NCBI GenBank assembly: GCA_027488335.1 | Contig: JAIYBU010000235.1 | Location: 1 to 44,059, forward strand | DNA: 44,059 nt | Reading direction: 5' to 3' | From: Cytophagaceae bacterium | GTDB lineage: Bacteria; Bacteroidota; Bacteroidia; Cytophagales; Spirosomataceae | Shown: one piece after another, positions 7,191-23,880 of the stretch | Layout of the letters: each line of letters begins with the position of its first letter | Numbering within the stretch: position 1 is the stretch's first letter | Translations under genes and position numbers: made by a program | Notes under the pieces: generated by a model | Database searches by the model: none | Told to the model about the DNA's origin: nothing | Seen by the model: only the letters and a program-made list of their open reading frames with translations

Positions 7191-7237
7191 GGCGACCGTG
7201 GCGAGATTTTGCCAAAACGGTTTTCATTAACTGCGAA

Positions 7238-8383
7238 ATGGACAGCCATATCTTGCCAGAAGGCTGGAATAATTGGGACAGACCCGAAACCGAAAAAACA
7301 ACTTTCTATGCAGAGTATGGTTCAAAAAGCGAAGGCTCAAATACGCAAAGCAGAGTAAAATGGGCTCACCAACTCAGCGAAAAAGAAGCTTCATCTTACA
7401 CAAAAGAAGAAGTATTCTCAGGAAAATTACTGACACAATACCAAGATTTTTGGAGTAAAACGCCTTCAATGAAAGGCATTACAAACGTTCGAGATACCTC
7501 ATATAGCAATTATAGTGCCTTGAAAAGCAGCCTAAAAACGCACCTGAATGCTACTTTGGTACCCGAAAAAACGCCAGAAAATGTTATTGAAGAACGAAAC
7601 CTTGTCTATGCTAATACTGGCACGAGAAATTTACAACTCGATGCTTTTTACCCAAAAACGAAGTCAAAAAAACTTCTCCCTGCCATTCTGATTATTCATG
7701 GGGGCGGTTGGCGTACAGGCAATCGTACACAACATATTCCATTGGCTCAACGCTTGGCAGCTTTGGGTTATGCAACTTTTACGGCCGAATATCGCCTTTC
7801 AACTGAAGCCCTCTACCCTACTGGCGTTTATGACTTGAAAGCAGCCGTAAGATGGATTCGAGCCAATGCCAAGAAATATGGCATCGACACCAATAAAATA
7901 GCCAGCGTAGGTTTTTCGGCGGGGGGTCAACTTTCGGCACTTATTGGAAATACGAATAATTTATCAAAATTTGAAGGAACTATCGGTAATTTGAAACATA
8001 CAAGTCAAATAAATGCCATCGTAGATATGGATGGAATATTGGCTTATATTCACCCAGAGTCAGGCGAAGGAGATGACCGAAAAAGTACCTCAGCCGCTAC
8101 TTATTGGTTTGGATTTAGCAAAGACGAAAACCCCGAACTTTGGCACGAAGCCTCGGCTCTTACGTATGCGGGTAAAAATACGCCACCAACCCTTTTCTTG
8201 AATAGTTCAGTTGATAGAATGCACGCTGGCCGTGACGATTATAGAAAAAAATTGGATGCGTTTGGTATTTATTCAGAAGTACATACTTTTGAAAATTCTC
8301 CTCACTCGTTTTGTTTACTCTCGCCGTGGTTTGACCCTACGGTTGAGTATATTGACAAGTTTTTGAAGAAAGTTTTAAAGTAG
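7238..8383 (+). CDS. Pectinesterase C-terminus fused to alpha/beta-hydrolase esterase
   Basis: By homology this frame reads from 7181; the Met at 7238 is internal. Residues 1-80 complete the CE8 beta-helix (PEGWNNWDRPETEKTTFYAEY). Residues about 120-381 are an alpha/beta hydrolase of the BD-FAE/acetylesterase kind: oxyanion motif H154-GGGW, nucleophile S227 in GFSAGG, acid probably D326 in SSVDRMHAG, and catalytic H356 in NSPHSF. The fused architecture suggests that one secreted protein removes both methyl and acetyl (or other acyl) groups from pectin. The acyl specificity is an inference. If translated alone from 7238 the product would lack a signal peptide and stay in the cytoplasm, a further reason to read both frames as one gene. 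Confidence 0.82.
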   Translation: MDSHILPEGWNNWDRPETEKTTFYAEYGSKSEGSNTQSRVKWAHQLSEKEASSYTKEEVFSGKLLTQYQDFWSKTPSMKGITNVRDTSYSNYSALKSSLKTHLNATLVPEKTPENVIEERNLVYANTGTRNLQLDAFYPKTKSKKLLPAILIIHGGGWRTGNRTQHIPLAQRLAALGYATFTAEYRLSTEALYPTGVYDLKAAVRWIRANAKKYGIDTNKIASVGFSAGGQLSALIGNTNNLSKFEGTIGNLKHTSQINAIVDMDGILAYIHPESGEGDDRKSTSAATYWFGFSKDENPELWHEASALTYAGKNTPPTLFLNSSVDRMHAGRDDYRKKLDAFGIYSEVHTFENSPHSFCLLSPWFDPTVEYIDKFLKKVLK

Positions 8384-8454
8384 CATAATTCTCCGAATTG
8401 TTTATTTCTCAAACAAAAATATAGGCACAATGTAGAAAATTGTGTTACGAAACT

Positions 8455-8799
8455 ATGATACAATTTAACAAAACCTTAGTCACCGATGACGAACTTCCTT
8501 GGGAAGTGGTTGACCCAAAAATCAAACGAAAAATAATGTCGTATAATGAAGACATTATGCTCGTGAAAGTTGCTTTCGAGAAAGGAGGCATTGGCACCAC
8601 GCACAAACATCCTCATTTACAAATTAGCTATGTGGCCAGTGGTGCATTTGAAATAACGGTTGCTGGTGAAAGTAAAATTTTGAAAGAAGGAGATGTCTAT
8701 TTTATTCCTTCCAATGTTCTTCATGGTGCGGTTTGTTTGGAAGATGGCATTTTAATCGATGTATTCAACCCTATGCGTGAGGATTTTGTAAAACCATAA
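8455..8799 (+). CDS. kdgF: KdgF-like cupin (unsaturated uronate ring-opening)
   Basis: This 114-residue single-domain cupin is numbered from ATG 8455; the frame also opens at a TTG at 8440, but the ATG is the better start. The metal-binding signature is clear: H-K-H-P-H-L-Q at 50-56 (H50, H52 and Q56 as likely ligands) and H90 in PSNVLHGAV. Size and motifs match KdgF, which converts 4,5-unsaturated uronates released by pectate and alginate lyases into the linear ketouronate. It lies 71 bp after the pectinesterase-esterase and 15 bp before a polysaccharide lyase, which supports that role. No signal peptide is present, so it acts in the cytoplasm. A generic cupin is the alternative. Confidence 0.75.
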   Translation: MIQFNKTLVTDDELPWEVVDPKIKRKIMSYNEDIMLVKVAFEKGGIGTTHKHPHLQISYVASGAFEITVAGESKILKEGDVYFIPSNVLHGAVCLEDGILIDVFNPMREDFVKP

Positions 8800-8814
8800 A
8801 CACCCCCGCCAAAA

Positions 8815-9975
8815 ATGAAAATTGTTCATATTTTTATCTTTCTACATCTTTTCTCCATTACTTTATTTGGGCAAAAACAACTATCAAACCAAGTAATTGA
8901 GGTTTTGCAGAAAGATATTATTGCTCAAGCCAATTGGGCAATGGTCCAACAACCAATCACGATAACGGCCGAACAGTGCGAGCGTTCGGCAGGTGGTTTG
9001 CATGATTTTTATTCCGAAGGTGATTATTGGTGGAAAAATCCAGAAGACCCAAACGGGCCATACATTCAGCGAGACGGACAGACTAATCCAGATAATTTTG
9101 TGGCCCACCGTAAAGCCATGATTAGGTTTAGTCAAATCGTTGGTTCGTTGGCTTCGGCGTATCTGATTACCAAAGATGAAAAGTATGTTAAACAGGCTTT
9201 TTTGCACATTAATGCTTGGTTTGTTGACAAAAACACCCTCATGAACCCTTCATTGCTTTATGCCCAAGCCATCAAAGGTAAGGCTACGGGCAGAGGCATT
9301 GGAATTATTGATACGATTCATCTGATGGAAGTTGCACAAGGAATTATTGTCATGCAAAAGGCAGCGAGTGTAGATAAAAATAATCTGCAAATTATCAAAA
9401 ACTGGTTTGCTCAATATCTTGCATGGCTTACCACTCATCAGTATGGTATTGACGAACGAGAAGCCAAAAACAATCATGGCACTTGCTGGGTAATGCAGGT
9501 GGCCTCCTTTGCGAAACTAACCGAAAATCAAAGCTTAATTGACTATTGCAACAATCGTTTCAAGACAGTTTTATTGCCCAATCAGCTCGAAAATGATGGT
9601 AGTTTCCCGCTTGAGTTAAAACGTACAAAACCTTACGGATATTCAATTTTCAACCTTGATGCCATGGCTACGCTTTGCCAAATTTTGTCTGACTCAAAAG
9701 ATAATTTGTGGAATTTTCAATTGGAAGATGGCCGTTCAATGAAAAAGGCGATTGAATTTTTGTACCCTTTTATTGAAAACAAAAGCCTTTGGGCTTTCCA
9801 AAAAGATGTAATGTATTGGGAAGAATGGCCAGTAGCTCAGCCTTTTTTATTATTTGGTTATCAGCACTTAGGTACTAAAAACTGGTTTGAGACATGGAAA
9901 AATCTGGAGCATTTTCCAAAAAATGATGAAGTAATCAGGAATTTACCCATCCGAAATCCATTAATTTGGCTTTAA
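8815..9975 (+). CDS. Alginate-lyase-superfamily polysaccharide lyase (PL38-like)
   Basis: This 386-residue protein has a signal peptide (cleavage near LFGQ) and the all-alpha toroid of the alginate_lyase superfamily (PF05426). Typical blocks are DFYSEGDYWW (64-73), the RDGQTNPDNF segment (86-95), NNHGTCW (219-225) with the likely catalytic Asn/His, and a late FQKDVMYWEEWP block. The fold performs beta-elimination on uronic-acid polymers; related PL38 enzymes act on glucuronan- or alginate-like chains. The gene sits between kdgF (15 bp) and an esterase (28 bp), so these genes are probably co-transcribed. The exact polymer cannot be told from sequence. Pectin is suggested by the pectinesterase, glucuronan or alginate by the fold. 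Confidence 0.8.
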   Translation: MKIVHIFIFLHLFSITLFGQKQLSNQVIEVLQKDIIAQANWAMVQQPITITAEQCERSAGGLHDFYSEGDYWWKNPEDPNGPYIQRDGQTNPDNFVAHRKAMIRFSQIVGSLASAYLITKDEKYVKQAFLHINAWFVDKNTLMNPSLLYAQAIKGKATGRGIGIIDTIHLMEVAQGIIVMQKAASVDKNNLQIIKNWFAQYLAWLTTHQYGIDEREAKNNHGTCWVMQVASFAKLTENQSLIDYCNNRFKTVLLPNQLENDGSFPLELKRTKPYGYSIFNLDAMATLCQILSDSKDNLWNFQLEDGRSMKKAIEFLYPFIENKSLWAFQKDVMYWEEWPVAQPFLLFGYQHLGTKNWFETWKNLEHFPKNDEVIRNLPIRNPLIWL

Positions 9976-10003
9976 TAACTATTCAACCTTATAAAATACA
10001 TCT

Positions 10004-11185
10004 ATGAAAACCTTATCTTTAACACTTATCTTAATACTCGTTGGGAAAATGAGCTTTGCTCAATACAACCCCGAAAAACCCGACCTTTGTCAAGGCAAAT
10101 TCTTTACAGAAGAAGATGCAAAGAACCTGCACGCTGATTTTGCAAGGCGATATTCTGATAAAAAATCTTGGCAAAAACACGCCCAAGAAATACGTCAAGG
10201 AATTTTGGAAGGTGCTGAATTGAACGATTATGAATTCAAGAAGCCAACTAATATTGTCATTCATAGCAAAAAGGAATTGAATGGGTATTCGGTCGAAAAT
10301 GTGTCGTTTCAGAGCATTGAAGGAATTTATGTAACTGGAAATTTGTATCGTCCTGCCGAATCTAACGGTTTGCCGCCCAAAGGTAAAAACGCAGGAATTT
10401 TATGTCCGCACGGGCATGGTCCAGACCCACGTTTCGCAGCTTACACGCAGCAACGCTGTGCTACGCTTGCACGCATGGGAGCGGTTGTTTTTGCTTATGA
10501 TATGATTGGCATGGGCGACTCAAAACAATCTACCCACAAACTTGAAAAAGCTCTCAAACTACAAATCATCAACAGTAAAGCAGCTCTTGACTTCTTGATA
10601 GATTTGCCTAATATTGATAAAAACCGAATTGGTATGACAGGCGAGTCAGGGGGTGGAACACAAACTTTCATACTTTCGGCTCTTGACGACCGCATCAAGG
10701 TTTCCGTACCCGTTGTGATGGTTTCTGGCTATTTTTTTGGCGGTTGTGTTTGTGAAAGTGGAATGCCGATTCATAAACGTCCAACTCACCAAACAACCAA
10801 TGTAGAAATTGCCGCAACCTTTGCTCCAAAACCTATGCTTTTAGTTTCGGATGGCGGAGATTGGACGGTAAACACACCTACGATGGAATATCCGTACATC
10901 AAGAATGTTTATTCATTTTTTGGGGCAGTCGATAACGTTGAAAATGTGCATCTCGCCAACGAAAAGCACGATTATGGCCCTTCAAAACGCATGGCTGCTT
11001 ATCCGTTTTTAGCAAAACATTTAAAACTCGACCTCCAAAAAGTGATGGTGGCTGGCAAAATAGACGAAAGTGCCAATAAAGTTTTAAGCCAAATGGAACT
11101 CCAAGTTTTTGATGAACAACACCCTCGCTCAGCAAATGCTGTGATGGGCGATGCAGAAGTAATGGCTCTTTTAGAAAAGAAATAA
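10004..11185 (+). CDS. Secreted alpha/beta hydrolase, acetylxylan-esterase-like (Abhydrolase_7 type)
   Basis: This 393-residue protein has a signal peptide ending at SFAQ. It is an alpha/beta hydrolase with an N-terminal helical extension. The oxyanion region is CPHGHGPD (134-141), the nucleophile S215 in GESGGG and the catalytic histidine H322 in EKHDYG; the acid may be D286 in GGDW. The family contains putative acetylxylan and other carbohydrate esterases, often beside polysaccharide lyases. It is the last gene of the cluster, 28 bp after the lyase and just before a terminator. I infer removal of acyl groups from plant or microbial polysaccharide; the substrate is unknown. An unusual Cys pair (GGCVCESG, about 246-253) sits in the cap region. 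Confidence 0.78.
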   Translation: MKTLSLTLILILVGKMSFAQYNPEKPDLCQGKFFTEEDAKNLHADFARRYSDKKSWQKHAQEIRQGILEGAELNDYEFKKPTNIVIHSKKELNGYSVENVSFQSIEGIYVTGNLYRPAESNGLPPKGKNAGILCPHGHGPDPRFAAYTQQRCATLARMGAVVFAYDMIGMGDSKQSTHKLEKALKLQIINSKAALDFLIDLPNIDKNRIGMTGESGGGTQTFILSALDDRIKVSVPVVMVSGYFFGGCVCESGMPIHKRPTHQTTNVEIAATFAPKPMLLVSDGGDWTVNTPTMEYPYIKNVYSFFGAVDNVENVHLANEKHDYGPSKRMAAYPFLAKHLKLDLQKVMVAGKIDESANKVLSQMELQVFDEQHPRSANAVMGDAEVMALLEKK

Positions 11186-11191
11186 CCTATA

Positions 11192-11228
11192 AAAATGAGG
11201 CTCGGCTGTAATAGACATGCCTCATTTT
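11192..11228 (+). terminator. Terminator of the pectin/uronate cluster
   Basis: A 10-bp perfect stem (AAAATGAGGC with GCCTCATTTT) encloses a 17-nt loop and is followed by a short T-rich tract. It begins 6 nt after the esterase stop codon. Confidence 0.7.
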
Positions 11229-11289
11229 CTTCTATGGCAATGTAAAAGTTATGCTGTATCTTTGCTAAATATCACTACTTACCTATTGA

Positions 11290-12090
11290 ATGAAAGAAAA
11301 TAACTCCTTGAATACTTCTTGGCGAAAAACCGCCTCAACAATATACAAAAAACCTGTTGACTCAAAAATCTTTGGTTCAGTCGAGATTGATATTACAGAT
11401 TTAGAAAAATACATTTCCGAAAAGCGTAAATCTGGCGTAAAAATTACACTCACACACTTTTTTTTGGTAGCTACAGCTCGGGCTATTAAAGAAATTCCAG
11501 AACTCAATACTTACGTAAAAAGAGGTAATATTTATTCGCACCAAGCAATCAATGCTACTGTGAGTGTACTTCTGCAAAACGGAGAAATGGGTTCGGTAAA
11601 GATGCTACATGCTGATAAACTAACACTTACAGAGTCTGCTATAAAACTGAAAGAAGAAATCCAAAAAACTTACAAAGGCGATGAAAATGCCACCATGCAA
11701 ATGAAAGAAAAACTGGCGGCTATTCCGTGGCCGTTGCGTGGGTGGGTTTATCAGACAATCAAATACATTACTACTACGCTCGGTATTTCTATTCCTCCGT
11801 TGGGGCTTTCGGCCAACAATTTTGGTTCGTTTATTTTATCAAATATCGGTAGCATTGGTCTGGATATTGGCTATCCTGCTTTGATGCCCTCGGCCAATAT
11901 CGCCTTTGTCTTGATTTTGGGTGGAGTTACAAAAAAACCGTGGGTAGTAAATGACGAAATCGTACCTCGTAGCATTCTGATGCTCGGTGCAGCCCTCGAC
12001 CATCGCGTAATTGATGCGTCGCACGGTGGCAAATTATTCAAACTACTGAAACGATTTGTTAGTAATCCTGAGTTGTTGGAGATAAACTAA
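11290..12090 (+). CDS. Stand-alone 2-oxoacid dehydrogenase E2 catalytic domain
   Basis: The 266 residues cover only the CoA-dependent acyltransferase fold of dihydrolipoamide acyltransferases (PF00198). There is no lipoyl domain or peripheral-subunit-binding domain. Visible signatures are FILSNIGSIG (181-190) and the active-site block DHRVIDASHGG, with H238 and D242. The usual HxxxDG is HxxxDA here. Full E2 proteins usually exceed 400 residues, so this is a dedicated short relative rather than a truncation; the N-terminus looks native. No E1 or E3 gene is nearby. It probably transfers an acyl group from CoA to an unknown acceptor. It lies 12 bp upstream of a methyltransferase-like gene, likely as an operon. 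Confidence 0.8.
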   Translation: MKENNSLNTSWRKTASTIYKKPVDSKIFGSVEIDITDLEKYISEKRKSGVKITLTHFFLVATARAIKEIPELNTYVKRGNIYSHQAINATVSVLLQNGEMGSVKMLHADKLTLTESAIKLKEEIQKTYKGDENATMQMKEKLAAIPWPLRGWVYQTIKYITTTLGISIPPLGLSANNFGSFILSNIGSIGLDIGYPALMPSANIAFVLILGGVTKKPWVVNDEIVPRSILMLGAALDHRVIDASHGGKLFKLLKRFVSNPELLEIN

Positions 12091-12102
12091 ACGCACTATT
12101 CC

Positions 12103-12801
12103 ATGAAATCTGCACTTGTAACTTTATTAAATTTTTTCTTATTCAAGATTAGCTGTTTTGCCCAAAATATTGACGAAAAAGAGATTATTTCTCTTCGTAC
12201 AGAGTGTGGAGGTGTTTATTTTAATAGCAAAGCAGAATTAGAAAAGAGTTGGGGAAAATCGCTTCGTTTTTTTGAATTGAAAAAGGGCGATAAAGTAGCC
12301 GATATCGGAGCAAAGTCCATGACCTTTATTGGTACTTTATCCGTATTTTATGAAAACGTAGATTTTTATTGCGAAGATATTGACTCGGCCTGTACTACTT
12401 CCAAACAAGCTCAGAAAGTCATTGATTTTTACAGTAAAATAAAAGGTTCGCCCATCACTTGCAGGTTTACTCCTGTTATTGGAACCGAAACTTCTACAAC
12501 ACTTTCTGAAAATTCCTTCGATAAGGTTATCATTGATAATTCGCTCCATGAGTTTTCGGAAAAAGTTCTAATGCTAAAAAATATCAACCAAATCTTAAAG
12601 AAAAACGGCATCTTATACCTCCGAGAATCTCTCGGACTCACCAACGGAGAACTCCATATAGGTTGTAAAAAAGCTCTTTTCGATGAAGCACATTTAATCG
12701 CTTTTATTACACAACAGGGCTTTAAATTTATTAAATCTCAGGATTGTCAGATTCCTACGGGAGCTTTTTCTTCAAAATTATTCCTATTTGTAAAACAATA
12801 A
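12103..12801 (+). CDS. Class I methyltransferase-fold protein with apparent signal peptide
   Basis: The first 21 residues form a signal peptide (hydrophobic core about 4-19, ending CFAQ). The rest resembles a Rossmann methyltransferase: motif I VADIGAKSM (65-73), acidic EDID (91-94), FDKVIIDNSLHEF as motif IV, and LKKNGILYL. Motif I lacks the usual GxGxG glycines, so SAM binding is uncertain. Export of a SAM-dependent enzyme would be unusual because SAM is cytoplasmic. The predicted signal could be a membrane anchor, or the protein may have lost catalysis. It follows the E2-like gene by 12 bp. Confidence 0.65.
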   Translation: MKSALVTLLNFFLFKISCFAQNIDEKEIISLRTECGGVYFNSKAELEKSWGKSLRFFELKKGDKVADIGAKSMTFIGTLSVFYENVDFYCEDIDSACTTSKQAQKVIDFYSKIKGSPITCRFTPVIGTETSTTLSENSFDKVIIDNSLHEFSEKVLMLKNINQILKKNGILYLRESLGLTNGELHIGCKKALFDEAHLIAFITQQGFKFIKSQDCQIPTGAFSSKLFLFVKQ

Positions 12802-12809
12802 AGCTGTAT

Positions 12810-12869
12810 ATATCTTCTCTCACTTTGGATAACAATAGATTTGGTTATCCAAAGTTTAGAGAGAGATAT
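12810..12869. repeat. Long imperfect inverted repeat
   Basis: A perfect 12-bp core (ACTTTGGATAAC, 12822-12833, facing 12844-12855) is extended outward by CT-rich/GA-rich arms (12810-12821 with 12856-12869, with bulges). It starts 8 nt after the methyltransferase stop. No T-run follows, so it may be a weak terminator or a structured mRNA end. Confidence 0.6.
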
Positions 12870-12875
12870 CCTCCC

Positions 12876-12917
12876 CAATTTCAAACGTTTGCATAACAAT
12901 TTCAAACGTTTGCATAA
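12876..12917. promoter_or_regulatory. Tandem LacI-type operators upstream of susC
   Basis: Two identical 21-bp units (12876-12896 and 12897-12917) abut each other. Each contains the perfect palindrome CAAACGTTTG (12882-12891 and 12903-12912), whose central CG and A/T flanks are typical of LacI-family operators. The 21-bp spacing puts both sites on the same DNA face. The TTTG of the second unit is also 19 bp before TATCTTAT (12932-12939), so a regulator bound there could cover a -33 element. The same core recurs before the inositol oxygenase gene. Confidence 0.7.
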
Positions 12918-13049
12918 TAATTTATACAAAATATCTTATTTTTTATTAGTAAAATGCAGTATTAAACCTTCCTAACCAGTTTTTCATCTCTCATGCCTCT
13001 GGCAATATAATCGTAATACTACGGTAATATTCTCTTAATCAGCAGGGTG

Positions 13050-13057
13050 TAGTTTTG
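13050..13057 (+). promoter_or_regulatory. Candidate -7 box for susC
   Basis: TAGTTTTG matches the Bacteroidota TAnnTTTG -7 consensus. No clear TTTG -33 element lies at the expected distance. It would give a 5' leader of about 190 nt. Confidence 0.3.
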
Positions 13058-13249
13058 CAGTTGTTTAGTAAGGCAACAATACCTAAACTCTAAACTTTTC
13101 TTTTTTATTAACCAAAACTTCGCTAATTAATCATTTATGTTCACCTAATTTAACACCAATGTCACGTACTGTTCATTTGATACAATTTTCTGTATCTCTC
13201 TTTCACAAGCTCAACAAGTATTCTTAATCACAAAAATCAGTCAACGACA

Positions 13250-16200
13250 ATGAATCAAAAACTACCGAAAAACAGGTTGCTTTCTTCTGTATTCGCAAAG
13301 CTATCTGTTACTATCCTATTATTTGCATTGCTGGGAATCGATGTAGGCTATGCTAAAAATCAGCCTAATACTATCGACATCACCGTAAAAGGTAAAGTTA
13401 CCGATGCCGAAACAGGAGATGGGCTTCCAGGGGTAAGCATAACGACCAAGGGTAGCACGAAAGGTGCAATCACAGACGGCAACGGAGATTATACAATCGC
13501 TGTGACTGATACCAAAGCTGTCTTGGTATTTAGCTATGTAGGCTACACGCCGCAAGAAGTAAACGTAGGCGGACAAACCCAAATCAATATACAGCTCAAA
13601 TCTGATAGCAAAACCCTCAGCGAAATAGTGGTTGTGGGTTACGGTACTGCCAAGAAAACCGATATCACGGGTGCGGTAAAATCAGTTAGAAGCGAAGAGT
13701 TCAACAAAGGTATCATCAACTCGCCTGAGCAGCTTTTACAAGGTAAAGTAGCGGGTGTAAACGTTACCTCAGCCAGTGGTGAGCCAGGTTCGGCACAAAA
13801 TATCTCAATCAGAGGGCCAGGTGGTGTTCGTACAGGCAGTACTCCTCTATTTGTAGTAGATGGTTTAGCTCTTGACAATTCGGGAACGGGCGGTGCTATG
13901 AACCCGCTTACATTCTTAAACCCACAAGATATCGAAACAATAGATGTATTGAAAGATGCTTCGGCAACGGCTATCTACGGTGCTCGTGGAGCCAATGGTG
14001 TTGTGTTAATTACTACTAAAAAAGGAAAAGCAGGAAGTTCTTCTATGAACTATTCAGCTACTTTAGGTATTTCCGAAATTGCTCGTGCATTGCCTGTTTA
14101 CACGGCTGATGAATACCGCAAAGCCGTACCAAGTGTAGGTGGTGTTTTAGAAGACCTGAAAGGAAATACCGATTGGCAAAAAGAAATCACTCGCACAGCC
14201 TACACACAAAACCATAACCTTACGATGGGTGGCGGTGCAGGAAAACTAACCTATTATGCTTCATTTGGAGCTCAAAAACAAGAAGGTATCTTGAAAAACA
14301 ACGATTTGAACCGCTATACAGGTCGTATCAATGTTAACCAGAAATTCTGGGAAGACCGCCTAAGTGTTGATGTAAATCTTAATGCTACTTTCACAACCAA
14401 TATGCGTCCGCCAATCGGAAGCATGATTGGAAATGCAATTTCGGTAAACCCTACTTATCCTGCACTTGATGCCGATGGGAATCCTGCGGTTTATCCTAAC
14501 TTAGTGAATCCTTTGGTTAGTTTGAAATTGGAAAAAGATATTACAAAAACAAATCGTTTGATAGGAAATATCTCGCCATCGCTCAAAATCACAAAAGATT
14601 TGACTTATAAACTGAATTATGGCATTGATAACTCAAATTCGGTACGTGATTTAGAATCTTTACCAAATGCTGTGCCTTTGCAAGATGGTCGCCTCGAAAC
14701 TATCTACACAAACAATAGCAATAGCCTCATCGAAAACTATCTGACTTACAGTAAAGATTTCAATAACCACAGCCTAACTGCGTTGGTTGGACACTCTTAC
14801 CAAAAGTTTTTCTTACAAGGTCGCTCGTCGAGTATCAATAAATTCCCGATTTCAGATATTGAACCTATTTATAACCCAGGGTTGGGTCAAGAGCTTACGT
14901 TAGCCAATAACAAACCTTCGGGATATGCACTCAAAAATGAATTACAGTCGTTTTTCTCAAGAGTAAATTATAGTTTTAAAGATAAATATTTACTCACTGC
15001 TACGGTTCGTGCCGATGGTTCATCAAAATTTGGTGCAAACAACAAATACGGTATTTTCCCTTCGTTTGCGGCAGGTTGGAGAATCTCAGAAGAAGCTTTC
15101 ATGAAAGGCTCACCAGTGAGCAACTTGAAGCTTCGTGCAGGTTGGGGGCAAACGGGTAACCAAGAAATTCCTTCAAAAATTACTCAAGCCTTATTTACAT
15201 CGTCGGTTTCGGCATCTACAAGTTATCCGCTCAATTCTTCGAGTGTTTATCCAGCAGGTACTACTTATAGCCGTTTAGCAAATCCTAATATTCAATGGGA
15301 AGTTTCGACACAAACAAACCTTGGTCTCGACTTTGGTTTCTTGAATGGTGCGTTATCTGGCTCGGTTGATTATTTCAATAAAGTTTCAAGCGATATTCTC
15401 TTAGAAGTTATTCCATCTGACCCTGTTCAACCAGCAGGTACATTCTGGACAAACGTAAAAGATATGAATATCACTAACAAAGGTTTGGAAATCGAATTGG
15501 CATATCGTCAGAAAACAAATAGTGGTCTAAACTACGGAATCGGTGGAAACGTAACTTTTATTCGTAACAAAGTAACCAACTCACCTTATTCGGTTATTCC
15601 TTCAGGAAGTGCTTCGGGTTCTGGACTTACTTCGGCTACAATCAATGGATATTTGAGCGGTGAGCCAATCGGAACTTTCTTCTTAAAAGATTTCACAGGT
15701 TTCGACGACAAAGGTCTTAGTACTTACCGTGATGTTGACGGCGATGGCCTCGTGACCGACAAAGACCGTATTGCTGCAGGTAGTGCTTTACCTACCATGC
15801 AATATAACTTCTTCGGAAATATCGGCTACAAAGGCTTTGATTTAGTAGTTAACTTCAACGGTGTTCGTGGCAATAAAATCTACGATAATACTGCCAACTC
15901 TAACTTCTACAAACTCCGTTTGTCGAAAGGAATCAATACAACACCTGAGGCTGTAAAATACGCCAATGAATCTACTAATAATGCGGCTCCTGTTTCTACT
16001 CGTTTCTTGAAAGATGGAGCATTCCTTCGTCTTAATAACTTAGCATTGGGCTATAGCTTCAATACCAAAGCATTGGGTATTGATAAGTACATTCCAGCAT
16101 TGCGTTTATCTGTTACTGGTCAAAATCTTTTTGTAATCACGAAATACGACGGCTATGACCCAGAAGTAAACACTGACCGAACTATCAACGGTATTTCATC

Positions 16201-16270
16201 GTACGGTATCGACTATTTAAGCTATCCAAAAGCTAAATCAATCATCTTTGGTCTAAATGTTTCATTCTAA
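13250..16270 (+). CDS. SusC/RagA-family TonB-dependent outer-membrane transporter
   Basis: This 1006-residue protein has a signal peptide (about 1-35). A carboxypeptidase-regulatory-like domain follows (about 44-125, KGKVTDAETGDGLPGVSI), then the TonB plug (about 135-260) with the conserved ATAIYGARGANGVVLITTKKGK-like block, then a long beta-barrel ending in a C-terminal Phe (FGLNVSF). SusC proteins import oligosaccharides or other large ligands across the outer membrane with a SusD lid. It is preceded by tandem CAAACGTTTG operators and followed 19 bp later by its SusD partner. The ligand is unknown; neighbouring uronate genes and the shared operator with inositol oxygenase suggest a uronate- or inositol-containing compound. 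Confidence 0.93.
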   Translation: MNQKLPKNRLLSSVFAKLSVTILLFALLGIDVGYAKNQPNTIDITVKGKVTDAETGDGLPGVSITTKGSTKGAITDGNGDYTIAVTDTKAVLVFSYVGYTPQEVNVGGQTQINIQLKSDSKTLSEIVVVGYGTAKKTDITGAVKSVRSEEFNKGIINSPEQLLQGKVAGVNVTSASGEPGSAQNISIRGPGGVRTGSTPLFVVDGLALDNSGTGGAMNPLTFLNPQDIETIDVLKDASATAIYGARGANGVVLITTKKGKAGSSSMNYSATLGISEIARALPVYTADEYRKAVPSVGGVLEDLKGNTDWQKEITRTAYTQNHNLTMGGGAGKLTYYASFGAQKQEGILKNNDLNRYTGRINVNQKFWEDRLSVDVNLNATFTTNMRPPIGSMIGNAISVNPTYPALDADGNPAVYPNLVNPLVSLKLEKDITKTNRLIGNISPSLKITKDLTYKLNYGIDNSNSVRDLESLPNAVPLQDGRLETIYTNNSNSLIENYLTYSKDFNNHSLTALVGHSYQKFFLQGRSSSINKFPISDIEPIYNPGLGQELTLANNKPSGYALKNELQSFFSRVNYSFKDKYLLTATVRADGSSKFGANNKYGIFPSFAAGWRISEEAFMKGSPVSNLKLRAGWGQTGNQEIPSKITQALFTSSVSASTSYPLNSSSVYPAGTTYSRLANPNIQWEVSTQTNLGLDFGFLNGALSGSVDYFNKVSSDILLEVIPSDPVQPAGTFWTNVKDMNITNKGLEIELAYRQKTNSGLNYGIGGNVTFIRNKVTNSPYSVIPSGSASGSGLTSATINGYLSGEPIGTFFLKDFTGFDDKGLSTYRDVDGDGLVTDKDRIAAGSALPTMQYNFFGNIGYKGFDLVVNFNGVRGNKIYDNTANSNFYKLRLSKGINTTPEAVKYANESTNNAAPVSTRFLKDGAFLRLNNLALGYSFNTKALGIDKYIPALRLSVTGQNLFVITKYDGYDPEVNTDRTINGISSYGIDYLSYPKAKSIIFGLNVSF

Positions 16271-16289
16271 ACGAAAAAAAAATACTCCA

Positions 16290-17972
16290 ATGAAAAAGAA
16301 AATATATTCAATATTATTCCTGTGTAGCTTTGCTGTTTTAGAAAGTTGCACCGACCTCAAAGAAGAAATTCTGGACGAAACCCTTTCGGCTGCAAAACTT
16401 ACTGATAAACAAGCCGCTGATGGTATCATCGCCCCCGTGTATGCACGTCTCCCAGATATTTTCTTGCATACTAACTATTTTGCTATTCAAGAAATCTCGA
16501 CCGATGAGGCTATCTTACCTTATCGTGGCGGTACTGACTGGGGTGATAATGGTATTTATATTGCCATGCACCAACATACTTACCAAAGCACCGACCCAAA
16601 TATTAGAAATACTTGGAACTTAATTTTGCAAGGAATGTCTCGTGCCATTACGGCCATGAATACCCTTCCAACGCTTAATGATGCCAATGCTAAAGTATAT
16701 TTGGCTGAAGCTCGTGGAATGCGTGCTTATTATTCGATGCTTACACTTGATTTGTTTGGCTTAGTTTTCGTGAAAGAAGACATCGGCGAAACTTCAAAAA
16801 TTCTTCGTGGAGAAGAAGCATTTCAATATGTAAAAAATGAATTCTTGGCAGTTGAACCTAACTTAGATGCCACGGTTGGCCCAGGTCGTTTGTCGAAAGG
16901 TGCCGTATGGGGATTATTGGCTCGTTTATACTTAAATGCTGCGGTTTATCGTGATGTGTACGGAACCCCTACGTTCAAAGCTGATGAAATGGATAAAGTA
17001 ACCGAATATTGTGATAAAATCATTAATTCGGGTACGTACAAATTATCGTCTGATTATTTCTCAATTTTCGGTTCTGACAACCACACCAACCCTGAGTTGA
17101 TTTTTGCAGTTGACCAACGAGCAGAGCTAAACGGACATAATCGTATGGCGTATTTCTCGCTATCAGGCGACCAGTTCCCCCTCCCTGCCTATCCGAATGC
17201 AAACGGTACTGATGGTCCAGCTATCACGCCTGATTTCTATCGTACTTGGGCTAATGAGTATGCTCCTAAAGACCCTGCAGAAGTTGACCCTCGTTTTTAT
17301 AAACAAAACCTCTCGGCCTATTCAAACCCTGCTGATTCATGTGTAGCTGAGGCTAATTTCAATATCAATCGTGGTATTCTCAGAGGTCAACAATATGGCT
17401 TGATTAGAAAAAATGGTGTATTTTTGAAATGTCCAGATGGTAAATTTAAAGTAGGTAAACTCTTCAACGATACTCGTAACCGTCCGACTGTACCAGTAAA
17501 CTTTACAGAAAAAGTTGATTTTACACCCGCAGGAAGCGATTACAGCTCTGGATACCGTGTTGAAAAATATGAATTCAGTAAAAAATCAGTTAGTGGACGT
17601 AACTTCGGAGACGCTGACATTATAATTCTTCGTCTGGCCGACGTTTATATGATGCGAGCCGAAGCCAAACTTCGTAAAAGCAATGACGCTGCGGGTGCTT
17701 TGGCCGATGTAAACTTCGTTCGTGCTGCCCGTACTACCCCTCCACCTGCTCTTACGTCTATGTCGCTGGATATTTTATTTAAAGAGCGTGGCTTTGAATT
17801 TTACTGGGAACACCAACGACGTACTGACATGATTCGCTTCGGAAAATACGAAGGAACTTGGACCGAAAAAACCAATACCGACAAACTAAAACGTATCTTC
17901 CCGATTCCACAAACAGCCATTGATGGTGCCTCAAACCTTCCTGGCTATTTGAAACAAAATCAAGGATATTAA
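16290..17972 (+). CDS. SusD/RagB-family surface lipoprotein
   Basis: I chose ATG 16290, giving 560 residues, because it starts directly with a lipoprotein signal (Cys20 in VLESC). An upstream in-frame ATG at 16257 overlaps the susC end and would add a non-signal extension. The protein has the SusD helical TPR scaffold, the RGMRAYYSMLTLDLFG-type block in its N-terminal half, and a C-terminal RagB/SusD segment (RLADVYMMRAEAKLR, LFKERGFEFYWEHQRRTDMIRFG). It is the surface ligand-binding partner of the preceding SusC. A strong terminator follows, so the pair forms a two-gene unit. Confidence 0.93.
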   Translation: MKKKIYSILFLCSFAVLESCTDLKEEILDETLSAAKLTDKQAADGIIAPVYARLPDIFLHTNYFAIQEISTDEAILPYRGGTDWGDNGIYIAMHQHTYQSTDPNIRNTWNLILQGMSRAITAMNTLPTLNDANAKVYLAEARGMRAYYSMLTLDLFGLVFVKEDIGETSKILRGEEAFQYVKNEFLAVEPNLDATVGPGRLSKGAVWGLLARLYLNAAVYRDVYGTPTFKADEMDKVTEYCDKIINSGTYKLSSDYFSIFGSDNHTNPELIFAVDQRAELNGHNRMAYFSLSGDQFPLPAYPNANGTDGPAITPDFYRTWANEYAPKDPAEVDPRFYKQNLSAYSNPADSCVAEANFNINRGILRGQQYGLIRKNGVFLKCPDGKFKVGKLFNDTRNRPTVPVNFTEKVDFTPAGSDYSSGYRVEKYEFSKKSVSGRNFGDADIIILRLADVYMMRAEAKLRKSNDAAGALADVNFVRAARTTPPPALTSMSLDILFKERGFEFYWEHQRRTDMIRFGKYEGTWTEKTNTDKLKRIFPIPQTAIDGASNLPGYLKQNQGY

Positions 17973-18024
17973 TTTTATTTGAATGTATAATTAATAATTG
18001 TAAAGCGTTCACTATTAATTGATT

Positions 18025-18066
18025 AAGCGATGATAAATAAAACTTAAGTTTTATTTATCATCGCTT
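18025..18066 (+). terminator. Terminator of susCD
   Basis: A perfect 21-bp inverted repeat (18025-18045 with 18046-18066) with no spacer is followed by a T-run. The centre must open to form the loop. Confidence 0.85.
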
Positions 18067-18091
18067 TTTGTCAAATTGCTTTTTTGCAACG

Positions 18092-18106
18092 ATTTCAAAC
18101 GTTTGC
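18092..18106. promoter_or_regulatory. LacI-type operator upstream of inositol oxygenase
   Basis: CAAACGTTTG (18096-18105) occurs within TTTCAAACGTTTGC, identical over 14 bases to the two copies before susC. It lies about 140 bp before the oxygenase start and directly after the susCD terminator. A -7-like TAGATTTT follows at 18129-18136, so the operator again sits near a plausible -33 position. Confidence 0.65.
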
Positions 18107-18246
18107 GTAAAATTTATTTGAAATTTTATAGATTTTATTACTTTATTGCATCAAATTTAGTTTGAATGTCTGTATCATAAGTCAGATATTCTTATTAAGT
18201 TTCAAAAAGTAGAAAAATTCATTAGACAATTCAAAAAATAATAGAA

Positions 18247-19125
18247 ATGAACTTCACTGAAAAAGAAATTTCGCCCCTCGCAAGCATCGAAGAATGGGAA
18301 GATGATTTGCTCGAAAGATACCCAGAGCCTAAAAACGCTGAAACAAAGAAAGCAAAAGAAGAATACCGTAATTATACAGATTCTGAGCGTGTGAATACCG
18401 TTAGAGAATTCTATCGTTTGAATCATACCTATCAAACTTACGATTTTGTTGTTCAGAAAGAAAAAGAGTTCTTGAAATTCGACAAACGTGAAATGTCTGT
18501 TTGGGATGCCATTGATTTCTTAAATACATTGGTAGATGATTCTGACCCTGATACAAACCTCGACCAGTTTCAACACCTACTTCAAACATCAGAGGCTATC
18601 AGAGCCGACGGCCACCCAGATTGGTTCGTTCTGATGGGCTTTATGCACGATTTAGGGAAGGTTCTTTGTTTGTTCGGCGAGCCACAATGGGCAGTTGTAG
18701 GCGATACCTTCCCTGTTGGTTGCAAACACTCTGATAAAATCGTTTATCCTGAGTTTTTCGAGGCAAACCCAGACTCAAAAGATGAGCGTTATAACACAAA
18801 ATACGGTGTTTATTCACCAAATTGTGGACTTGAAAACGTTAAGATGTCTTGGGGACATGACGAGTATCTTTACCAAATGATGAAAAATTATTTACCCGAA
18901 GAAGCTCTTTACCCAATTCGTTATCACTCATTCTATCCGCAACACCGTGATGACGCTTATAGTCATTTGATGTCAGCACATGACTACAAAATGTTTAAAT
19001 GGGTAGATAAATTCAACCCTTATGATTTGTATTCTAAAGTGCCAGTACCACCAAATGCAAAAGAACTTCGCCCGTATTACGAAGATTTAGTAGCTAAGTA
19101 TTTACCTGCTACATTGAAATTCTAA
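18247..19125 (+). CDS. miox: Myo-inositol oxygenase
   Basis: This 292-residue protein is close in length to animal MIOX (about 285). All diiron ligands can be placed: H110 (QFQHLL), H134-D135 (GFMHDLGK), H204 (WGHDEY), H227 (IRYHSFYP) and D260 (NPYDLY). The catalytic lysine is K138. Spacings match the human enzyme closely (for example H227 to D260 equals H220 to D253). The enzyme uses O2 to cleave myo-inositol to D-glucuronate in the cytoplasm. It has its own CAAACGTTTG operator, shared with susC, and is bounded by terminators on both sides, so it is probably monocistronic. No other inositol gene lies in the window. Confidence 0.93.
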
Positions 19126-19140
19126 TACAGATAAATAGGT

Positions 19141-19180
19141 AACAAAAAAGGGAAAATCGTAAGATTTTCCCTTTTTTGTT
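19141..19180. terminator. Bidirectional terminator between miox and gldN
   Basis: An 18-bp perfect stem (19141-19158 with 19163-19180) has a GTAA loop and runs of A and T at its base. It sits between convergent genes and can serve both. Confidence 0.9.
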
Positions 19181-19197
19181 AGATTACTGACTGAATC

Positions 19198-20076
19198 TTA
19201 ATACTCCCACAAATTATGTTCAAACTCCATCAATTCGTGTTCTAATTGCTCAGATTTCAACAAACCTTCACGTGGAGACTTATAAATATCATCTAAGAAA
19301 TTATCCAAAGCATTCGATTTTTTGATAATCTTACCGTGGAACAAACGCAATTCAAACGCATCTGCTAAGTTTTTGTGCGATGCTACATTGGCAGCATTAT
19401 ACCAAATACACTTAGGATTGCTACGGAAATAACGCTCCAATTCTTTGTATTTGAATACACAAATCGGACGGTCAAATCCTAAAGTAGTTTGGTCGGCTGG
19501 AATGATTAATTTCAACGTAAGAATATCAAAATACTGACGTGAACGTTGTTTGTCAAAAATCCAGTCTTCTTTCAACTCTAAGGTTGTCAATTGTGTCGGA
19601 AAAATTTCTACACCAGCACCTGGGTCTGCGGCCGCAGCAGTAGCAGCACCACCAGCTGTGGGTTTAGCAGCACCGCCACTATCTCCACCCCAACCGTCGT
19701 CGCCACCAGCCGAGAAACCAGCAGCTTTTTCTTCTTCCGATAAACCACCGCCTTCACTTTTCAATAACAAGCGTTCATTGAATTGGTCAAGTGTAAGCTT
19801 TGTTGTCAATGAATCATTATCGTAGGCTTCAATCAAACCAGCTTTAACGGCATCAATCAAGTGTCGCGTAATTTCACTTCCTTTCGAGAAAAGCGGTTGA
19901 TTTTGCTTTTCCTTCAAGTCAATTCTTCGCCATAAAGTTGCTTTAAACATGACATTTTCTTCATGTATAGGGCGAAGCGATAGCGGATTCAAATAATTAT
20001 TTGACTTTTCTTGAGCTACTGCAAAATGGCTGATAATCAATGAGATACCAAAAGCCAAGCCTTGTAATTTCTTCAT
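19198..20076 (-). CDS. gldN: Type IX secretion / gliding protein GldN (PorN)
   Basis: This 292-residue protein has a signal peptide ending HFAVAQ. The body matches GldN: an N-terminal NYLNPLSLRPIHEENVMFKA-like region, TLWRRIDLKEKQNQPLF, and the C-terminal ELERYFRSNPKCIWYN block. GldN forms a periplasmic ring with lipoprotein GldK around the type IX secretion motor. It is the last gene of the porP-gldKLMN order, 21 bp after gldM. An insert at about 120-155 is very rich in Gly, Ala and Asp (GGDDGWGGDSGG, then an Ala run), probably a flexible linker. A terminator shared with miox follows. Confidence 0.92.
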   Translation of the reverse strand: MKKLQGLAFGISLIISHFAVAQEKSNNYLNPLSLRPIHEENVMFKATLWRRIDLKEKQNQPLFSKGSEITRHLIDAVKAGLIEAYDNDSLTTKLTLDQFNERLLLKSEGGGLSEEEKAAGFSAGGDDGWGGDSGGAAKPTAGGAATAAAADPGAGVEIFPTQLTTLELKEDWIFDKQRSRQYFDILTLKLIIPADQTTLGFDRPICVFKYKELERYFRSNPKCIWYNAANVASHKNLADAFELRLFHGKIIKKSNALDNFLDDIYKSPREGLLKSEQLEHELMEFEHNLWEY

Positions 20077-20097
20077 AATTCTGACAATTATTTTTTA

Positions 20098-21684
20098 TTA
20101 ATTCAATGGCACAGTGAAAATCATTTCTCCAACATCCACCGTTTCCACTTCTCCTTTAAAATTTCTACGTTCTACACGCTTTACTACTATTACATAACGG
20201 TCACCCGCTTGTGCTTGTTGTGCAAGGTTCGAAACATTTGCAGTATTGCCATTAAATGGTCCTCCTCCTACTCTTCTTGAACCACGAGCCAAATTAACCT
20301 CAAACTCAGCTACTCTAAATGCAGCATCTTCAGGGTTAGTCGATTTGAATGATTCATCAGCGATTGCACTAATATTAATTGTTCTTAAACCAGTTGCCGA
20401 AGCTCCTCTACGCTCATCAATTCCAACTAACTTAATTGTTGGCTTAGGCACACGACGCACTGGAAAATTAAATGTTTGCAACGTAATACCACCATTTACA
20501 ACATTCATTGAAGCTTTGGCTGAATTTGGTACAATAGTAACTTTGCCACCTTCTCCTTGAATAAATTCTGCACCTGACCCACTAAAAGATGGGCTGTATA
20601 ATGCACCTAAACCTGGAGAATAAGTTGATAAACGGTTGGCACATTTAAAGTATAAAGCTGGCATTGAAGCTGTTTCGATTTGAACCGAAGGCTTCAATAC
20701 TGTGTATGTTTCTTCTTTCTCTACCGATTTCATTGAGCCATCTGGTGAAGGATAAGAAACAGTTGCTTTATATGAACGTTTCAACTGTCCGTTTTTATCA
20801 AAATCGCCACCAGATGCTGTGATTTCGTATAAACCTTTACCGTCTTTTACTGGTAAAGCCGAACCATTGATACTGATTCTTGGTGTAATAGATTTAGAGT
20901 ACGCTCCGATTGCTACCTCAGCTTTGTATTTCTGACCAGCAACTACCGAACGTGAATCTGGAATGACTACCGCAAAGATTTCATCAAATTTGATTTCTTT
21001 GATACCCACTTGGCTTGCGAGATATTCTAATACTTCTCCTTCTAAACGACGAACCTCTGATTGTTTTTGGCTCAATACAGCCAATGCCGCTGGTACTGGT
21101 GTTTGAGCAAAATATAATTCAGAGAAATCTTTACTTTTAGTAATATTATCGGTTCTTGCCAGAGCAGGGTCTTGAGAAGCATCAACTGCTAACTCTGGAA
21201 ACTTAGTGTTTGGTGCAGCAAATTTTTGTAACTGAACAGCGAAATCATTCAACTTCTTTTTCAATTCATATCCTTTACCATTTTTTGCATCACCAACCAT
21301 CAATATGGCTACTTTTTCTTCTTCCGAAGGGTTTTTCACACCACCCGTTTCAGCATCAAGGCCACCGCCAGCATTGACGATTTCTTGCTTCAAACCACTG
21401 ATATAATTATCCATTTCGGTTGTAATTTTTCTTACTTCAACAGCCTTTTGAAGTACATCAGCATACTGAGCACCACCAGGTTTCTCTCTGATTTCTTTTT
21501 CAATTGCTTTTACTGACTTCTCGTTATTGCCGTTAGCCGCAGAGTTTGCTCTTTCTAAACTATTATTTAAAAGCTGAAATTTCTGCAAGAGGGCATTACT
21601 CACTTGCAGTGCTAACATTGCCGTCAGAACGAGATACATCATGTTTATCATCTTCTGACGTGGCGACTCTTTTCCACCTGCCAT
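20098..21684 (-). CDS. gldM: Type IX secretion / gliding motor protein GldM (PorM)
   Basis: This 528-residue protein starts MAGGKESPRQKMINMMYLVL. A single N-terminal transmembrane helix (about 12-32) is followed by a long periplasmic part. The helical domain (about 35-220) and the beta-rich D2-D4 domains (after about 220) fit GldM. The C-terminal part ends in VDVGEMIFTVPLN. GldM dimers, together with GldL, form the proton-driven motor and reach toward the GldK/GldN ring. The gene lies between gldL (121 bp gap) and gldN (21 bp). Confidence 0.93.
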   Translation of the reverse strand: MAGGKESPRQKMINMMYLVLTAMLALQVSNALLQKFQLLNNSLERANSAANGNNEKSVKAIEKEIREKPGGAQYADVLQKAVEVRKITTEMDNYISGLKQEIVNAGGGLDAETGGVKNPSEEEKVAILMVGDAKNGKGYELKKKLNDFAVQLQKFAAPNTKFPELAVDASQDPALARTDNITKSKDFSELYFAQTPVPAALAVLSQKQSEVRRLEGEVLEYLASQVGIKEIKFDEIFAVVIPDSRSVVAGQKYKAEVAIGAYSKSITPRISINGSALPVKDGKGLYEITASGGDFDKNGQLKRSYKATVSYPSPDGSMKSVEKEETYTVLKPSVQIETASMPALYFKCANRLSTYSPGLGALYSPSFSGSGAEFIQGEGGKVTIVPNSAKASMNVVNGGITLQTFNFPVRRVPKPTIKLVGIDERRGASATGLRTINISAIADESFKSTNPEDAAFRVAEFEVNLARGSRRVGGGPFNGNTANVSNLAQQAQAGDRYVIVVKRVERRNFKGEVETVDVGEMIFTVPLN

Positions 21685-21805
21685 ATATTCTATATATTAT
21701 ACAGTTAGTAAATTTTTTAATTATAAAATTGGACTGCGTTGTCGTAAATTTCTGCGTAAGATGAGTAAAAACTCATAACTTTTACCTTTTAACTCAGCAC
21801 TCTTA

Positions 21806-22621
21806 TTAGTTTCCTTTCATTGCCGACAACATACTTCCATAAACATTATTTAACGAAGTAAGGTTGTTTGTCAGTTTCGACATTTCAGTTTTGAACTGTT
21901 GAGCTTCTTTCGAGGCATCTGACATATCTTGCATGGCAGTCGTCAAATTACCATAAAAAGCGTTCATTGCTTTCAAATGTTTATTAGTATCTTGTAATTC
22001 AAGTTCATAAACAGCATTCAAAGCACCCATGTTTTGAGTTATCTTTGTGAATTGTGAACGATACTCTTGAGCATCTTTAGTGGCATCAGCCATGCTATTC
22101 ATTGCATTTACGGCAGTACCATAAGCAGTGTTCATAGCTGTTACTTGCACAGACGCATTTTTCACATTTTTAGCGTAATCGCTGGTTGCTACGGTTGCAT
22201 CTGTTAAATCTGACATTTTAGCAACTTGACCAGTAAGGCTTTGGATACCAGTTTTCAAACCGTCAAAAATATCTGGTGAAATCTTAGCGTTAGCAAGCAT
22301 ATCATCCATTTTCGCAGTTAAACCAGCACCTTGAGTTGACGTAACACTTCTTTTCGGAAGTTCGCCTTGAAAATCATCAGCTAACTCTGGATAAACTTTT
22401 TCCCACTGATACTCATTATCTGGACGAAGAAATGATTGAAAGGCATAAATCAAGAAAATAGCAGCTTCTGTGCCTAAACCGATAGGTAACATAAAGTTCG
22501 CCCAGTCGTAGTGCATGATTTTACCTAATGCTCCTAAGATTACAACCGAAGCTCCTGCTCCATAAAAAAACGGAATGATTTTGTCCCAAAATAAACTTTT
22601 ACCGTTGCTATTTGCTGCCAT
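21806..22621 (-). CDS. gldL: Type IX secretion / gliding motor protein GldL (PorL)
   Basis: In this 271-residue inner-membrane protein, two transmembrane helices lie at about 16-36 and 43-64. E53 lies in the second, a plausible counterpart of the proton-handling Glu known in GldL. The cytoplasmic tail is helical and contains two tandem copies of a roughly 43-residue unit (163-205 and 219-261), each opening with MNxxYG and closing with LNxVY. It pairs with GldM as the motor of type IX secretion. A 53-nt hairpin lies in the gap between gldK and this gene. Confidence 0.93.
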   Translation of the reverse strand: MAANSNGKSLFWDKIIPFFYGAGASVVILGALGKIMHYDWANFMLPIGLGTEAAIFLIYAFQSFLRPDNEYQWEKVYPELADDFQGELPKRSVTSTQGAGLTAKMDDMLANAKISPDIFDGLKTGIQSLTGQVAKMSDLTDATVATSDYAKNVKNASVQVTAMNTAYGTAVNAMNSMADATKDAQEYRSQFTKITQNMGALNAVYELELQDTNKHLKAMNAFYGNLTTAMQDMSDASKEAQQFKTEMSKLTNNLTSLNNVYGSMLSAMKGN

Positions 22622-22707
22622 GTGTTTAAAAATTTAATAATTAAGCTTTAATTTAAAAGGGAATTGATTTATAATTTTTGAATCTACTTTCATTTAGACA
22701 TAATAAA

Positions 22708-22760
22708 TGCGAAGTATAAGTCGAAATATTCATATAGAATACTTCGGGATATACTTCGCA
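22708..22760 (-). promoter_or_regulatory. Long hairpin in the gldK-gldL gap
   Basis: The outer stem TGCGAAGTATA (22708-22718) pairs with 22750-22760. The inner stem 22722-22731 pairs with 22737-22746 (9 of 10), around a 5-nt ATATA loop. No T-run follows on the minus strand. It could be an RNA processing or stability element, or a partial terminator, that sets the gldK to gldLMN ratio. Confidence 0.6.
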
Positions 22761-22773
22761 ATCATTTTTGTTA

Positions 22774-23868: not shown

Positions 23869-23880
23869 AGCTGAAAACAA

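Follow-up and report, generated by a model that had tools for sequence, protein, structure and literature searches.

A predicted LacI-family inositol regulon joining SusCD uptake to myo-inositol oxygenase or the Iol pathway in Emticicia and its relatives

Why should the same palindrome stand before an outer-membrane uptake pair (susC and susD, together susCD) and before a gene for myo-inositol oxygenase (miox) in one 44,059-nucleotide contig of a Cytophagaceae bacterium (JAIYBU010000235.1, positions 1 to 44,059, hereafter called the window)? A sequence-only reading of this DNA had proposed that the repeated sequence is a LacI-type operator, that it places both transcription units in one regulon, and that the regulator gene lies outside the window. 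The sites, their conservation, the co-occurrence of one regulator and the recurrence of the same regulator-operator pair on iol operons, as established here by sequence comparison, suggest that the three sites are operators of a single LacI-family inositol regulator of the IolR type, encoded on another contig (C89) of the source genome, which would control susCD and miox as one regulon. We put the probability of this reading at roughly 0.88.

The window holds three copies of the palindromic core CAAACGTTTG and no more (12882-12891, 12903-12912 and 18096-18105), twice before susC and once before miox, at the positions already given by the sequence-only reading. Before susC the unit CAATTTCAAACGTTTGCATAA is perfectly duplicated with a period of 21 bp (Table 1). 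A block of identical bases is indeed common to all three sites, although its length is 15 consecutive bases, ATTTCAAACGTTTGC, rather than the 14 first counted. The predicted MIOX gives a full-length match to PF05153 (residues 50-292, profile positions 2-249 of 249, E 7.6e-109), and the adjacent SusC and SusD satisfy the SusC/RagA and SusD_RagB models (TIGR04056, 775 bits; PF07980, 74 bits).

How specific the site is was assessed by pattern searches of the source genome (5.01 Mb in 240 contigs, 94.7% complete). The bare 10-mer CAAACGTTTG is found at 22 places, against 5 for its reversed control; 14 of the 22 lie within mechanically called open reading frames (ORFs) and 8 are intergenic, the three window copies included. 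The sequence TTTCAAACGTTTGC has 4 exact copies in the genome, 3 of them in the window. For ATTTMAAACGTTTGCRTAA, the scan for random copies called for by the sequence-only reading returned three perfect copies, each of them in the window, no match with one or two mismatches and 17 with three (its reversed control gives 29 matches at three or fewer). The 10-bp core is thus a generic palindrome and the specificity lies in the flanks, because the 10-mer is non-specific and yet ATTTMAAACGTTTGCRTAA is confined to the window; as a marker of the regulon the core alone was rejected, given its 22 places and 14 occurrences in ORFs.

Four of the five remaining intergenic copies of CAAACGTTTG adjoin regulator genes. 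On contigs C46 (L032:680-760) and C218 (L059:4015-4055), repeats containing CAAACGTTTG lie in the divergent spacer of a lacI-family gene, facing a GH88-like gene and then susC in the first case and susC directly in the second; these are probably separate LacI-SusC regulons with a similar core. A single site precedes a ROK-family gene on C209 (L058:4021), another lies downstream of a tetR-family gene on C91, and one is located before a glutaminase A-like gene adjoining a GH43 gene on C76 (L050:2911).

The window's genus, which appears to be Emticicia, was represented by 11 genomes, the source genome (G000) included. Seven carry miox, and in six of these, the source genome among them, the exact site is present upstream of it, as it is in L196, another Emticicia metagenome-assembled genome (MAG). 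The seventh, G002, has two degenerate copies of the site, 21 bp apart, before miox. Upstream of susC the 21-bp tandem is found in all nine orthologues (at least 74% identity, the window's own included), a count that leaves out G009, where a contig end truncates susC, and G002, where the best match reaches 51% identity. Both copies of the tandem contain AAACGTTTG exactly in eight of the nine, the ninth having a single core mismatch in the upstream copy; copy 2 has AAACGTTTGC exactly in 9/9, with C as the preceding base in five and A in four. In the four genomes that lack miox, A takes the place of C immediately before the core. The conservation of the site before both susC and miox, and the single regulator clade that accompanies it, are consistent with the proposed joining of uptake and oxidation in one regulon.

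LacI-family genes number six in the source genome and 56 in the genus. In a tree of these 56 proteins, one clade (support 100/100) brings together four proteins linked to iol genes and six others, contributed singly by the genomes with an intact miox site, that of the source genome being encoded on contig C89 (C89:8564-9583; L063:3565-4587). The proposal that no regulator gene lies in the window agrees with this location. All ten proteins of the clade share an identical ITIKDIARKFKCSPSTVSRALND, from which C46, C117 and C147 differ. Ten of the 11 genomes have a member; only G002, the genome with degenerate sites, is without one. The C89 protein matches the LacI helix-turn-helix model PF00356 at 44.8 bits against a cut-off of 27, as do its relatives from L178, L206, L212 and L201 above that cut-off, and its C-terminal part matches the periplasmic-binding-protein-like effector domains PF13377 (E 7.4e-31) and PF00532 (E 1e-22). 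Among NCBIfam models no equivalog was above its cut-off for this protein, the best matches being CytR (206 bits), RbsR (191) and PurR (166).

The exceptional arrangement in G002 can be traced by comparison with G010. Positions 3051-6420 of G002 align with 3237-6605 of G010, and positions 6367-14547 with 11844-20000; at the operator repeats the two alignments share 54 bases. The deletion implied in G002, about 5.29 kb, equals within a few bases the distance in G010 from operator 2 of susC to the operator of miox (95425 and 90132). Since the size of the deletion matches the operator spacing, susCD appears to have been excised from G002 by recombination between operators, after which the tandem left before miox would have decayed. 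The miox frame of G002 is intact, at 95% identity, and the regulator was not found in this genome. In L196, too, no susCD is present beside miox, and one exact site is kept.

Four Emticicia genomes without miox (G001, G005, G007 and G008) carry the tandem site as well, in each case at the head of an ORF series of one and the same pattern. In G005 this series reads, by NCBIfam, IolB, IolC, IolA (methylmalonate-semialdehyde dehydrogenase), IolG, a sodium-solute symporter, an IolJ-like ketose-bisphosphate aldolase and IolD. Followed gene by gene in G005 and G008, the operon ends with an IolE-like protein (a TIM barrel, scanned in G008) and then lacI; in G001 and G007 lacI has coordinates matching this operon end. 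In the loci read from G001, G005 and G007 another susCD likewise has a single site in front of it (checked by hidden Markov models in G007). Such an additional inositol-type site in miox-less Emticicia is located at L132:9216, L134:7950 and L136:8432, where the second susCD (SusC of 1084 aa) is followed by a PSCyt1/DUF2231/leucine-rich-repeat protein (domains scanned in L134). G008 carries on C2 a site with one mismatch. No miox was found at E 1e-60 or better in these four genomes, nor in the 48 genomes of group g8 described below; the exclusion of one pathway by the other is documented in this direction only.

The regulator-operator pair would thus have stayed constant while the pathway differs between sister lineages, with the oxygenase in the window's clade and the classical Iol route in others. 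We consider it likely that the catabolic pathway (MIOX or Iol) was exchanged beneath a fixed LacI switch on susCD, and that the operator repeats served as recombination points deleting susCD in a lineage where the regulator is no longer found. In the corresponding mechanism the C89 protein would bind the susC and miox operators directly, SusCD would take up inositol or an inositol-releasing compound through the outer membrane, MIOX would oxidise myo-inositol to D-glucuronate, and myo-inositol would act as the ligand that relieves repression. Myo-inositol is the most likely ligand because it is the starting compound of the MIOX route and of the Iol route alike. The regulon might instead sense some other compound, such as glucuronate, phytate or an inositol glycoside, the inositol genes being one branch of it. 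SusCD pairs commonly import larger molecules, and the additional susCD with a single site in G001, G005 and G007 is accompanied by a membrane gene of unknown function; the gene sets nevertheless converge on myo-inositol, through MIOX in some genomes and the Iol pathway in others, and we regard a different ligand as unlikely.

The site and the regulator recur together beyond Emticicia. Named records yielded 56 miox loci, and a LacI search was carried out on 43 loci in 42 genomes. A Jiulongibacter MAG (L206) has the order lacI, GCAAACGTTTGC, susC, susD, miox; Runella zeae (L212) has the site, miox and lacI in that order; and in Xanthocytophaga (L201), and likewise in G112, the site lies between lacI and miox. 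A LacI of at least 52% identity was found in 8 of the 42 genomes, each of which has a site within its miox unit (directly before miox in seven, before the susC of the cluster in one), while the remaining 34 have a LacI of at most 44% identity and one of them (L200) has the site. This amounts to 8/8 against 1/34 (Fisher 8e-8), or on a strict count 7/8 against 1/34 (2e-6). Other genera also have relatives of the window's SusC, at 62-72% identity, in company with miox, lacI or iol genes.

Across the family a LacI of at least 47% identity is present in 95 of 222 genomes. In 84 loci examined, all outside Emticicia and Jiulongibacter, the stretch beside lacI contains the site in 78, and the neighbour is iolB, miox or susC wherever the contig reaches one. 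In group g8 lacI is divergent from iolB around the site in 48/48 genomes, and in 11/11 loci with susC next to lacI, fetched afterwards as a check, a 20-bp tandem site precedes susC. Group g29 shows the order site, miox, lacI in 8 of 12 genomes; in the four exceptions, again fetched afterwards as a check, the site is upstream of an unlinked miox in 4/4. Groups g2 (14/14) and g3 (2/2) have lacI and the site, followed by susC wherever the contig reaches, g22 has lacI, site, susC and susD with miox downstream (4/4), and g9 and g24 have the site beside lacI in one genome each. The six loci without an adjoining site are G161, G162, G165, G167, G193 and G199. When LacI (at least 47% identity) was set against the site among 30 miox-bearing genomes, of 156, the miox unit had a site in 18/18 genomes with LacI and 1/12 without (Fisher 2e-7), or 13/18 and 1/12 if only sites within 500 bp of miox are counted (Fisher 8e-4); these p-values and those of the 42-genome set are nominal, as the two sets overlap and the genomes are related. 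Conservation before the orthologues, which the sequence-only reading required, thus extends from the genus to miox, iolB and susC elsewhere, and the recurrence of the site beside one LacI-family gene across genera supports the assignment as a LacI-type operator.

It follows from the same data that chance, or promoter elements without a dedicated regulator, is a scarcely credible source of the palindromes. The 14 of 22 core copies within ORFs are probably due to chance, and each site does hold a TTTG, a possible -33 element; these sites, on the other hand, are kept across genera beside one regulator gene in the expected places, and they are degenerate where the regulator was not found.

Seven cyanobacterial records of Nostoc type (L233-L236, L238, L239 and L248) contain miox at 72-74% identity, with a LacI-family match (34-35% identity, opposite strand) beginning about 2.5 kb upstream of it. 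This may possibly be an independent association of LacI with MIOX.

Several observations weigh against assigning the sites to the C89 regulator. Its gene is unlinked to the targets in the source genome, and a search for an exact site before it, as suggested by the sequence-only reading, found none, so that autoregulation through an exact site was rejected for this genome; in many relatives, unlike the source genome, lacI is preceded by the site. The G002 assembly, a MAG, is 90% complete, and the absence of its lacI may be an assembly gap. In G127 (a MAG of 88% completeness, identical with L200/L403) miox is preceded by the site and no LacI orthologue was found, and G193 and G199 carry the LacI without a convincing site nearby, as judged in the stretch beside lacI only. 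In the count of 18/18 against 1/12, five genomes (G124, G143, G144, G147 and G150) are included through a site before the susC of a presumed susC-susD-miox operon, and the genomes lacking LacI did not receive the same scrutiny of such upstream units. Finally, other LacI paralogues (C46 and C218) probably use the same 10-bp core, and the clade of C191 is present in all 11 genomes of the genus, so that presence alone does not exclude it.

The last two points raise the question of whether one of these paralogues, C46 or C218 with CAAACGTTTG upstream of its own gene in a divergent spacer, or a protein of the C191 type, reads the susC and miox sites. The flanks of the C46 and C218 sites are unlike those of the inositol site, and the helix-turn-helix of C46, C117, C147 and C218 is unlike that of the C89 clade. 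Close relatives of the source genome's C46 protein occur in 4 other genomes and of its C218 protein in 1, and of the clades in the tree only the C89 clade is found in all ten genomes with intact sites and is absent from the one with degenerate sites. Among the loci read, moreover, no LacI outside this clade and its relatives in other genera was seen in an iol operon or next to a miox that has the site. With flanks, helix-turn-helix and clade distribution all different, C46 and C218 were judged unlikely regulators, and a role for any of these paralogues seems to us very improbable; the C89 protein is the preferred candidate.

In which direction would this regulator act? A perfect hairpin with a T run in the gap between susD and miox is a probable terminator; miox therefore likely needs a promoter of its own, and two promoters are likely. 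A second hairpin separates the methyltransferase-like gene farther upstream from the tandem operator and is also probably a terminator. Bacteroidota promoters follow the pattern TTTG/TAnnTTTG, and promoters were scanned in six groups with a joint -33/-7 score that is biased to the operator, since every operator supplies a TTTG. By this score the operator's own TTTG is the best -33 element in four of the six (Emticicia miox and susC, g8 susC and Runella miox), with spacings of 19-23. Scored on the -7 element alone, the promoter falls farther downstream, at 41 to 53 bp, in four of the six groups (Emticicia iolB at 41, g8 susC and Runella miox at 53, about one helical turn between groups). Occlusion of a -33 element, as proposed by the sequence-only reading, is thus favoured by the joint scan, with its bias, and not by the -7 element alone. 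Before iolB in g8 (45 distinct sequences) the best joint pair (9.0/10) lies 3' of the operator centre, with a -33-like TTTG at 29 bp and a -7-like element at 52 bp, and a near-tied alternative (8.84) uses the operator's TTTG.

LacI-family catabolic regulators are mostly repressors. We lean towards ligand-relieved repression over activation because of this family precedent, because of G002, where miox is intact and the regulator undetected, and because of the joint promoter scan. Conceivably the same LacI activates in dependence on its ligand, or has a dual role as Cra does, working from sites upstream of the core promoter. The downstream promoter pair of g8 iolB, the phasing of the -7 positions (41, 53 and 53) and the 20- or 21-bp spacing of the tandem copies would all fit such an arrangement, for which Cra and PckR, in the accessible text of a survey of LacI-family regulators, provide precedents of activation (PMC4052901). 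Given the preference of the joint score, biased as it is, for the operator's TTTG in four groups with a near-tie in g8 iolB, and the miox frame of G002, whose persistence is easier to understand after loss of a repressor, we hold activation to be possible but doubtful.

Table 1. Positions of the putative operators, associated genes and hairpins in the window.
Feature	Coordinates	Strand	Basis
Putative operator copy 1 of the susC tandem, CAATTTCAAACGTTTGCATAA	12876..12896	+	sequence and orthologue comparison
Putative operator copy 2 of the susC tandem, 21 bp 3' of copy 1	12897..12917	+	
Putative single operator upstream of miox, ATTTCAAACGTTTGCGTAA (long form)	18092..18110	+	
susC-type TonB-dependent outer-membrane transporter, 1006 aa	13250..16270	+	TIGR04056
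susD-type outer-membrane lipoprotein, mechanical ORF of 571 aa	16257..17972	+	
miox, myo-inositol oxygenase, 292 aa	18247..19125	+	PF05153
Perfect hairpin and T run, susD/miox gap	18027..18064	.	read from sequence
Hairpin between methyltransferase-like gene (upstream) and tandem operator	12818..12866	.	read from sequence

For susD, a later ATG at 16291 looks a likelier start than that of the mechanical ORF. Gene annotation of the window covers up to about 29.9 kb. A stretch in front of the inositol locus (6492-11185) carries genes of pectinesterase, alginate-lyase-family and esterase-like type and forms a uronate-related neighbourhood, the MIOX product being a uronate as well. Within it (6492-8383) a pectinesterase domain is divided over two ORFs, with profile positions 1-206 in the first and 233-297 in the second, which runs on into a BD-FAE esterase; this may be an interrupted gene or a sequencing slip. 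Directly 3' of miox, on the opposite strand (19198-25195), are type IX secretion/gliding genes for GldN, GldM, GldL, PorP/SprF and a protein with an FGE-sulfatase domain, which we presume may be GldK.

How does this predicted regulon compare with known systems? PurR, RbsR and CytR are the best NCBIfam matches of the C89 protein, CcpA, RbsR and PurR are among its nearest solved structures, and the 10-bp core presumably resembles the PurR operator. The inositol LacI differs from these regulators in its targets and its clade, and satisfies no equivalog model. The regulators of Bacillus subtilis (IolR) and Salmonella (IolR and ReiD) all control iol genes. They belong to other regulator families, IolR of B. 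subtilis being a member of the DeoR family. Salmonella ReiD is an AraC-type activator of iolE and iolG1, and neither SusCD nor MIOX is described in the accessible account (PMC9430895). In that study Iol clusters are reported for 3% of 2,227 Bacteroidetes species, and neither LacI nor Emticicia occurs in its main text (PMC9430895). The Bacteroides regulators UxuR, UxaR and KdgR are likewise LacI-family proteins of Bacteroidota and serve a neighbouring pathway, glucuronate being the product of MIOX; as far as the accessible text goes, they regulate uronate genes and not inositol genes (PMC4052901).

The closest parallel is offered by the LacI-family IolR regulators, of which Table 1 of Ravcheev et al. 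2014 (PMC4052901) lists seven orthologous groups; the C89 protein is likened to them by features. Shared features, as given in the accessible text, are the LacI family, inositol catabolism and an even palindrome with a central CG (PMC4052901). As in the IolR group, regulator and operator are linked to inositol genes, at the end of the iol operon, divergent from iolB or beside miox. That survey covers a single Bacteroides taxonomic group, and its accessible text makes no mention of miox or susCD targets or of one regulator over two pathways (PMC4052901). A literature search by title and abstract opening, whose coverage leaves out most subscription papers, returned no paper describing the regulon. 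The predicted regulon suggests an inositol-linked role for a SusCD pair that had no substrate prediction, names a candidate regulator for an aerobic inositol pathway in Bacteroidota, and predicts inositol-serving SusCD pairs in dozens of related genomes; it would also offer a natural example of one pathway replacing another beneath a regulator and operator that are conserved. Inositol regulators of the LacI family are known, and what would be new here is one that spans SusCD uptake and two interchangeable, non-homologous pathways of inositol breakdown.

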